DNA of 64,000 bases, taken from Polynucleobacter sp. MWH-Loch1C5. Its GTDB lineage: Bacteria > Pseudomonadota > Gammaproteobacteria > Burkholderiales > Burkholderiaceae. Location of the stretch: positions 992,001 through 1,056,000 of the forward strand of contig NZ_JACVPR010000001.1 in NCBI RefSeq assembly GCF_018881775.1, read 5' to 3'. Both the position numbers and the translations under genes were made by a program. Shown here piece after piece: positions 15,175 to 16,376 of this stretch. The notes under the pieces were generated by a model that was given only the letters and a program-made list of their open reading frames with translations, did not search any database and was not told the DNA's origin. Position 1 is the stretch's first letter. The number at the start of each line of letters is the position of its first letter.

Positions 15175-15597
15175 TTACGCCTCGATGATTTCAAAAGAAT
15201 GAGTGATTTCTGCCGTTTTACTCAGCATGATCGTGGCTGAGCAATACTTATCGTGAGATAGCTCAATAGCACGTTCAACTTTATTCTTATCTAAGTTTTT
15301 ACCGATCACGATAAAGCTCATGTGAATCTTAGTGAAGACTTTAGGATCTTCGTTAGCGCGTTCGGCGCTGAGCTTGACTGAGCAGTCATGGATCTCCTGA
15401 CGCGCTCTTTTAAGAATCATGACGACGTCAAAACAGGTGCAGCCACCCGCACCCACCAGCATCATTTCCATGGGGCGAGGCGCAAGGTTGCGACCCCCTG
15501 CATCAGGGGCGCCGTCCATATTGACGAGGTGACCACTGCCCGTTTCTGCGCTAAAGGCCATTCCATCCCGGCCTAACCATTTCACGATTGCTTCCAT
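15175..15597 (-). CDS. OsmC family protein
   Basis: Small protein of the OsmC/Ohr superfamily (140 residues), a group that includes thiol peroxidases acting on organic hydroperoxides. The family phrase '[20 protein letters not shown]' carries the conserved cysteine region (GCTCFDV), and a second conserved position lies near '[19 protein letters not shown]'. These match the YhfA-like branch better than classical Ohr, so peroxidase activity is unproven. The gene converges with rnpB; its TAA stop is read from the same T-rich stretch that ends rnpB. GAGGAAAAA precedes the ATG as ribosome site. The 350-bp region beyond its start carries a separate, rightward RNA candidate. Confidence 0.9.
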
Positions 15598-15676
15598 TTT
15601 TTCCTCATTTTGGGGCGATTTGCGCCGTTTTGCCTAGGACAAATATAAGAAATTTATCAATAAAAACAACAATTTC

Positions 15677-15704
15677 TTGCATATTTGAGGTGGCTAATTA
15701 TAAT
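15677..15704 (+). promoter_or_regulatory. Strong sigma70-like promoter of the candidate small RNA
   Basis: TTGCAT (15677-15682) and a perfect TATAAT (15699-15704) are separated by 16 bp. The predicted start of transcription is about 15711, immediately before the first hairpin of the candidate RNA. No reading frame with a ribosome site follows before the terminator. Confidence 0.75.
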
Positions 15705-15710
15705 TTTTCA

Positions 15711-15804
15711 CATCATTTGACCTTTATTGTAGGTCAAATAACCAGTGTCTCCTCCACCCTCTATGGTGGATTTATGCCCGGGATAGGAATCCCGGGCTTT
15801 TTTT
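15711..15804 (+). ncRNA. Candidate small RNA with three hairpins and an anti-Shine-Dalgarno motif
   Basis: A transcript of about 94 nt is predicted between a consensus-like promoter and an intrinsic terminator. Hairpin 1 is perfect: ATTTGACCT (15715-15723) with AGGTCAAAT (15731-15739) and a 7-nt loop. Hairpin 2 pairs TCCACC (15753-15758) with GGTGGA (15765-15770) across CTCTAT. Hairpin 3 is the terminator. CTCCTCC at 15749-15755 lies in the linker and the start of hairpin 2; it is complementary to Shine-Dalgarno sequences. I recall a described betaproteobacterial 'toxic small RNA' class with an anti-SD motif, which this may belong to or resemble; I cannot test this here. A leader attenuator for rplM is the main alternative, but the separate promoter after the terminator argues for a stand-alone RNA. 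Confidence 0.7.
15776..15804 (+). terminator. Intrinsic terminator of the candidate small RNA
   Basis: Perfect 9-bp stem GCCCGGGAT / ATCCCGGGC (15776-15784 and 15789-15797), 4-nt loop AGGA, then seven T residues. It is one of the strongest terminator-like structures in the window. Confidence 0.9.
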
Positions 15805-15812
15805 GCTACAAT
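15804..15812 (+). promoter_or_regulatory. Extended -10 promoter of rplM-rpsI
   Basis: TGCTACAAT (15804-15812) is an extended -10 element with a 5/6 match to TATAAT; no good -35 is visible. It directly follows the T-run of the upstream terminator, so L13/S9 transcription would start afresh at about 15819. Confidence 0.55.
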
Positions 15813-15818
15813 GGTGGA

Positions 15819-15947
15819 CTTTTCGGGAATAGCCCCTCGAAAATGGTAGTACCAAGTTCTTGCTTGAAACGGCGAGCCTGCAAACATAAGCGGTGCCAAA
15901 GTGACAACAGTAACTTGTTTATTAGGGCATCACAATTTAAGGTAATC
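15819..15947 (+). promoter_or_regulatory. 5' leader of rplM-rpsI
   Basis: About 129 nt between the predicted start of transcription and the rplM ATG, with no gene. It can form TTTTCG (15820-15825) / CGAAAA (15838-15843), and a weaker stem around GCTTG...CGAGC. A ribosomal-protein operon leader of this length may bind L13 for autogenous control; this is inference only. AAGG lies shortly before the ATG. Confidence 0.4.
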
Positions 15948-16376
15948 ATGAAAACTTTCTCAGCAAAACCGCATGAGGTGAAGCGTGAGTGGTTCGTGAT
16001 TGACGCAACAGACAAAGTTCTCGGTCGTGTCGCCAGTGAAGTGGCACACCGTCTGCGCGGCAAGCACAAGCCTGAATTCACCCCCCACGTCGATACTGGT
16101 GACTATATCGTTGTTATTAACGCAGCTAAGTTGCGCGTGACAGGCACAAAAGGTCTGAATAAAAAATATTACAGACACAGTGGCTACCCAGGCGGCATCT
16201 ATGAAACTAACTTTGACAAGATGCAAGCTAAATTCCCTGGACGTGCTTTGGAAAAAGCAGTGAAGGGTATGTTGCCAAAAGGTCCGTTAGGTTATGCCAT
16301 GATCAAAAAGCTCAAGGTTTATGCTGAAACTGATCATCCACATGCTGCCCAGCAGCCTAGCGTTTTAGAGATTTAA
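15948..16376 (+). CDS. rplM: Ribosomal protein L13 (uL13)
   Basis: Large-subunit ribosomal protein, 142 residues, the usual size. Family features are '[20 protein letters not shown]', '[20 protein letters not shown]' and '[19 protein letters not shown]'. The ORF-track start at 15588 is wrong: it would add 120 residues translated from the candidate small RNA and the leader. The ATG at 15948 (MKTFSAKP) fits the family and has AAGGTAATC before it. rpsI follows after 9 bp, the conserved bacterial L13-S9 operon. Confidence 0.98.

Follow-up and report, generated by a model that had tools for sequence, protein, structure and literature searches.

The family Betaproteobacteria_toxic_sRNA (Rfam RF02278) is an already described one, made up of anti-Shine-Dalgarno (anti-SD) small RNAs (sRNAs) that block the ribosome-binding sites of metabolic genes. 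NcS27 of Burkholderia cenocepacia, a 'double-hairpin RNA' of 92 nt, was established as a discrete RNA by dRNA-seq, RACE and qPCR (PMC10987360). It lies between BCAL3348a and BCAL3349 (PMC4603805), BCAL3348 being named as a ribosomal protein gene (PMC5688073), and it is cut between CGA and AUG (PMC7377471). On some substrates but not others NcS27 attenuates growth (PMC10987360), and it also attenuates respiration, with effects on phenylalanine/tyrosine catabolism and carbohydrate transport; its levels, like those of NcS03 and NcS05, are higher in glucose medium. S17 of Bordetella pertussis affects ~91 genes (PMC11722255), and its form S17S represses BP2158 via 'Site 1', as restoring double mutants show, in an Hfq-dependent manner. 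Processing before UGUCUCC has been published for both S17 and NcS27 (PMC11722255, PMC5688073, PMC7377471). In Neisseria, NmsRA and NmsRB (RcoF, NgncR_162/163; RF02877) repress defined TCA-cycle mRNAs through their anti-SDs (PMC5362039). As to control, Sass et al. (2017) described as unknown what governs the accumulation of the sRNAs they had found, double-hairpin RNAs included; for S17, a repressor yet to be identified was postulated by Sim et al. (2024).

The window (the whole stretch of 64,000 nt of Polynucleobacter DNA analyzed here) holds an RNA of this kind at a conserved position framed by two genes: a divergent upstream OsmC-family gene (15175-15597, minus strand; PF02566) and rplM, which encodes ribosomal protein L13 and lies downstream, outside the sRNA (15948-16376, plus strand; PF00572, E = 2.3e-45). 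All elements of the sRNA are on the plus strand. Its predicted promoter (15677-15704) consists of TTGCAT (15677-15682), a 16-nt spacer and TATAAT (15699-15704). The -10 and the TTGC of the -35 region recur in relatives, and a promoter scan listed no site here because TTGCAT shares no more than 3 of 6 bases with the -35 consensus. Counting from the -10, the primary transcript is predicted to span ~94 nt (15711-15804), a segment that folds at -37.8 kcal/mol, against -21.7 ± 3.35 kcal/mol in dinucleotide shuffles (z = -4.8; none of 200 shuffles as good). Hairpin 1 (15715-15739; arms 15715-15723 and 15731-15739) has 9 bp and a regional z of -4.1. Hairpin 2 (15753-15770; arms 15753-15758 and 15765-15770) pairs UCCACC with GGUGGA over 6 bp around a 6-nt loop, CUCUAU. 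Hairpin 3 (9 bp, arms 15776-15784 and 15789-15797) and a run of seven T (15798-15804) form an intrinsic terminator at 15776-15804, which a terminator scan recovers. The linker at 15740-15752 is unpaired with a probability of at least 0.91. The seed, GUCUCCUCC (15747-15755), is the counterpart of Site 1 of S17 and of alpha-SD1 of NmsR; its part 15747-15752 is single-stranded and 15753-15755 belong to the stem of hairpin 2, so that CTCCTCC (15749-15755) starts in the linker and enters the hairpin from 15753.

Directly 3' of the terminator lies an extended -10 element, TG-C-TACAAT (15804-15812, plus strand), the probable promoter of rplM; TA(C/T)AAT is conserved at this place in relatives. An open frame at 15588-16376 spans the sRNA and continues into rplM, with no sign of translation. 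The first-pass annotation had given the promoter hexamers and their spacing, the three perfect stems, the T run and CTCCTCC correctly to the base, and its view of a stand-alone, terminated anti-SD RNA, separate from an rplM leader with its own extended -10, is borne out. The rplM leader itself (15813-15947) is well conserved in the genus (GCGAGCnTGCAAAnATAAGC) and is perhaps an L13 autoregulatory leader; Rfam gave no match for it. On the other side, an RNase P RNA (RF00010, 14872-15172) adjoins osmC, an arrangement that recurs in Burkholderia and Polynucleobacter loci.

The Rfam search proposed in that annotation places the RNA in the class of betaproteobacterial toxic sRNAs that it had named. 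RF02278 matches at 15746-15805 (plus strand; model positions 1-64), which is the expected mature form, with 54.8 bits (cmscan, E = 6.7e-10), only 4.8 bits over the gathering cut-off of 50; a scan of the whole window finds the same match. The UGUCUCCUCC seed, hairpin 2 and the terminator hairpin with its T run are all present. The window RNA lacks the second anti-SD that family members typically carry in the hairpin 2 loop; since this element is unnecessary for reaching the cut-off, we do not treat it as defining. Across the taxonomic family 133 of 150 genomes have RF02278 matches beyond the cut-off, as do 38 of 61 in the genus, which sequence comparison also points to as Polynucleobacter, since loci named as such (L064, L069) are nearly identical to those of same-genus genomes. 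With RF02877 (NmsRb) the whole RNA aligns, at 30.8 bits and thus under the cut-off of 52, and the scores with RF02837 (anti-hemB, 21.7 bits, cut-off 49.5) and RF02784 (SorX, 21.9 bits, cut-off 46.6) are well under threshold, the likeness to these two being weak and lying in the anti-SD and terminator part. A new sRNA family, which had been raised as an option, is rejected by the RF02278 match above the cut-off.

Within the family the closest counterpart is NcS27. It shares with the window RNA the position between osmC and rplM, an own promoter, membership of RF02278, the length (92 versus ~94 nt) and the order of hairpin 1, UGUCUCCUCCACC and two further hairpins, and it differs in carrying a second CUCCUCC in the loop of hairpin 2, where the window has CUCUAU. 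Two Burkholderia loci (L054 and L062) read CCGAATGTCTCC, consistent with the published NcS27 cut. S17 resembles the window RNA in its UGUCUCCUCCACC seed, TTGCAT -35, hairpin 2 and terminator, but has a 190-nt precursor and adjoins coq7 rather than rplM. NmsRA and NmsRB likewise have three hairpins with an anti-SD between hairpins 1 and 2, but are tandem genes beside lrp with RelA-linked control. We therefore read the window RNA, with a probability of about 0.87, as the Polynucleobacter-type orthologue of NcS27, in a freshwater bacterium with a small genome, and as an RF02278 sRNA with a mechanism as in its relatives; the call of orthology is based on the three-hairpin form and on the place of the gene, with osmC diverging on one side and rplM on the other. 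With family and orthologue named, findings published for NcS27, S17 and NmsR become transferable to it.

The order osmC (minus), sRNA (plus), rplM (plus) is shared by dozens of Burkholderiales loci, and many named Burkholderiales have TGTCTCCTCC and a terminator on the rplM strand between the divergent osmC and rplM; some rplM loci, such as those of Massilia, Janthinobacterium and Bordetella, have no sRNA at this place. Among 37 aligned relatives TCTCCTCC is invariant. The covariation check that had been suggested for the stems turned out positive for two of the three: in hairpin 3, 4 of 6 consensus pairs have changed in a compensatory way (37 sequences), and in hairpin 1, 3 of 11 pairs have done so within Polynucleobacter, but hairpin 2 hardly varies, because its 5' arm is the seed. 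From the 37-sequence alignment RNAalifold retrieves hairpin 3 alone, as MAFFT misaligns hairpin 2, with its 5' arm frozen by the seed. Relatives retain a hairpin at the place of hairpin 1, about half of them with another sequence; over 43 sequences this region has a mean z of -1.4, and z < -1.5 in 21, so the hairpin is not evident in every relative. The loop of hairpin 2 reads CUCCUCCUUU, that is, the second anti-SD CUCCUCC, in most relatives outside Polynucleobacter, and AAACAUA or similar in other members of the genus.

By analogy with these relatives, the sigma-70-type promoter would give an RNA of ~94 nt ending at hairpin 3, and a cut before UGUCUCC, made by RNase E in S17 and expected at the corresponding place here, would probably remove hairpin 1 and leave a form of ~58 nt, as in S17 and NcS27. 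The exposed GUCUCC(UCC), aided by Hfq, would then pair with GGAGGAGAC-like SD regions of a restricted group of genes for transport and carbon metabolism and block their translation, as shown in relatives. Ribosome-binding sites in the genome that match the 6-nt seed number 77, versus 63 when the pattern is reversed, which is no clear enrichment. The 8-nt seed has a single match at a real ribosome-binding site, GGAGGAGAGCATG, upstream of a gene for a TctC-family binding protein (G000:C1:246343; GGAGGAGAGCAUG), after which a CoA-transferase gene comes next. The computed duplex energy with the sRNA is -22.7 kcal/mol at this site, against -7.1 at the start region of rplM and -16.3 at that of osmC. 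The gene for the TctC-type carboxylate-binding protein, followed by that for the CoA-transferase, is thus our predicted target. A second place matching the 8-nt seed was rejected, as it lies inside an hscB-like frame with no start there.

How such an RNA acts is where the name 'toxic sRNA' suggests something else, namely a general poison of translation that titrates ribosomes by its anti-SD. Overexpressed RF02278 RNAs do inhibit E. coli (PMC4603805, PMC5688073), and NmsR is toxic there, more mildly so once its alpha-SDs are mutated. Against this, S17 showed no toxicity in E. coli (PMC11722255) and S17S is non-toxic in exponential cells, the effects of NcS27 depend on the substrate, and the window RNA, its second anti-SD gone, has only GUCUCC fully unpaired. 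We consider a general poison very unlikely, and the 'broad repressor of translation' of the first-pass annotation overstated: the characterized relatives act on selected metabolic and transport mRNAs, as seen in the ~91 genes of S17, the substrate dependence of NcS27 and the defined TCA-cycle mRNAs of the NmsRs.

The neighborhood of rplM raises another possibility, a transcription attenuator or leader of this gene, with transcription either stopping at hairpin 3 or reading through. The sRNA precedes the start of rplM by ~145 nt on the same strand, and rplM is autoregulated in other bacteria. However, a separate, conserved promoter-like element for rplM follows the terminator, the distance between sRNA and rplM varies from ~200 to ~1000 nt in relatives, and one close genome (L223) has lost the sRNA entirely yet keeps rplM and TACAAT. 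The detection of NcS27 as a discrete RNA (PMC10987360) points the same way, and we give an attenuator hardly any credence. The absence of the gene from L223 can also be read, together with the degraded seed (TCTCTTCC) and weakened terminator of a more distant genome (L227), as a sign that the window RNA is a decaying, non-functional copy whose role has passed to siblings such as the RNA in a phasin 3' UTR described below; the window clade has indeed lost both the second anti-SD and the promoter operator discussed next. Yet the three hairpins are perfect, the fold keeps its z of -4.8, and TATAAT and the seed are both preserved, which makes decay improbable. The reading as an orthologue of NcS27 is the one we carry forward.

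In most rplM-linked relatives TTCTTGC(A/G)T(T/C)GCAC(A/C)A lies over the -35 region of the sRNA promoter. Of 66 distinct rplM-type copies, the window included, 50 have the core TTGC-N3-GCA upstream, versus 0.6% of shuffles, although the copies are related and the counts therefore not independent. Outside Polynucleobacter, the core overlaps the -35 within 115 nt in 23 of 32 rplM-linked relatives. All 49 operator sites of this kind are followed, 15-19 nt on, by a loose -10 match, and the baseline in the same loci at large is that 5% of TTGC continue as N3-GCA. The arrangement extends to RF02278 paralogues (L009-L038), 26 of 30 of which carry the core over the -35, 36-37 nt before TCTCC. It resembles the PhbF site footprinted in Herbaspirillum, TG[N]TGC[N]3GCAA, and the Rhodobacter PhaR site, CTGC[N]3GCAG (PMC3206438). 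The window genome encodes PhaR (PF07879) and has five perfect TTGCRYYGCACMA matches, three of which precede two phasin genes and a PHB depolymerase gene. At the sRNA promoter of the window and its near relatives the second half-site, GCA, is absent, so that TTGC-N3-GCA is not found there.

Judged from these motifs, the RF02278 promoters of relatives appear to be under control of the PHB state through a putative PhaR/PhbF operator, and the greater abundance of NcS03, NcS05 and NcS27 in medium with glucose would fit derepression by PHB. What is new here is evidence suggesting that most relatives sit under a PHB-sensing control site that the window lineage would have lost. In Sinorhizobium meliloti the PhaR homologue AniA represses the promoter of the sRNA MmgR (alpha-r8) (PMC8401924), a parallel to the PhaR link proposed here for relatives, but this RNA is alphaproteobacterial and has phasin targets. 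No paper describing these sRNAs as controlled by PhaR came up in our literature search, whose reach excluded Sass 2019, the key paper on NcS27. An operator of PhaR type over the -35 offers a specific candidate for the control questions of Sass et al. (2017) and Sim et al. (2024).

The wiring of the window clade may have moved rather than vanished. The 3' UTR of a Phasin_2 gene contains a sibling anti-SD RNA (L003:1501-1572, G000:C1:74369-74440; also L190-L198), with UUGUCUCCUCGGUACCC, a hairpin and a strong terminator, and the phasin promoter in this clade carries a PhaR-type operator. UUGUCUCCUCGGUACCC with a terminator is present in the phasin 3' UTR of all nine near genomes versus none of 21 other Polynucleobacter examined. 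We propose, as an even call, that the RF02278 sRNAs of Burkholderiales could be an output of PhaR, kept off until PHB granules sequester PhaR and then stopping carbon uptake and catabolism, and that in the window clade the rplM copy would have lost its operator while a CUCCUC RNA arose in the phasin 3' UTR under one. If true, this would link carbon storage to the shutdown of carbon uptake across a bacterial order. The stricter idea that operator loss is always paired with the phasin 3' UTR RNA does not hold: in a third group of the genus (L228-L232, L235-L238) both operator and phasin 3' UTR RNA are missing, so that the association of operator loss with this RNA amounts to one clade and one evolutionary event and is no statistical proof of a swap. 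Ahead of the sRNA, four loci of this third group (L235-L238) have a different conserved stretch, possibly another control site, whose end reads ACCCTAATATATAAT (three of them have ACCTAGTGATAACCCTAATATATAAT there).

A second sibling (L002:1501-1559, minus strand, G000:C1:313949-314007) carries UGUCUCCUCACAGGCCC and has two hairpins and a run of eight T, and reaches 35.1 bits with RF02278, under the cut-off. Further GUCUCCUC stretches, each with a terminator hairpin after it, lie at L004:1501-1550 (G000:C1:853457-853506) and at G000:C1:288713-288758, bringing the possible number of such anti-SD RNAs in the genome to four or five.
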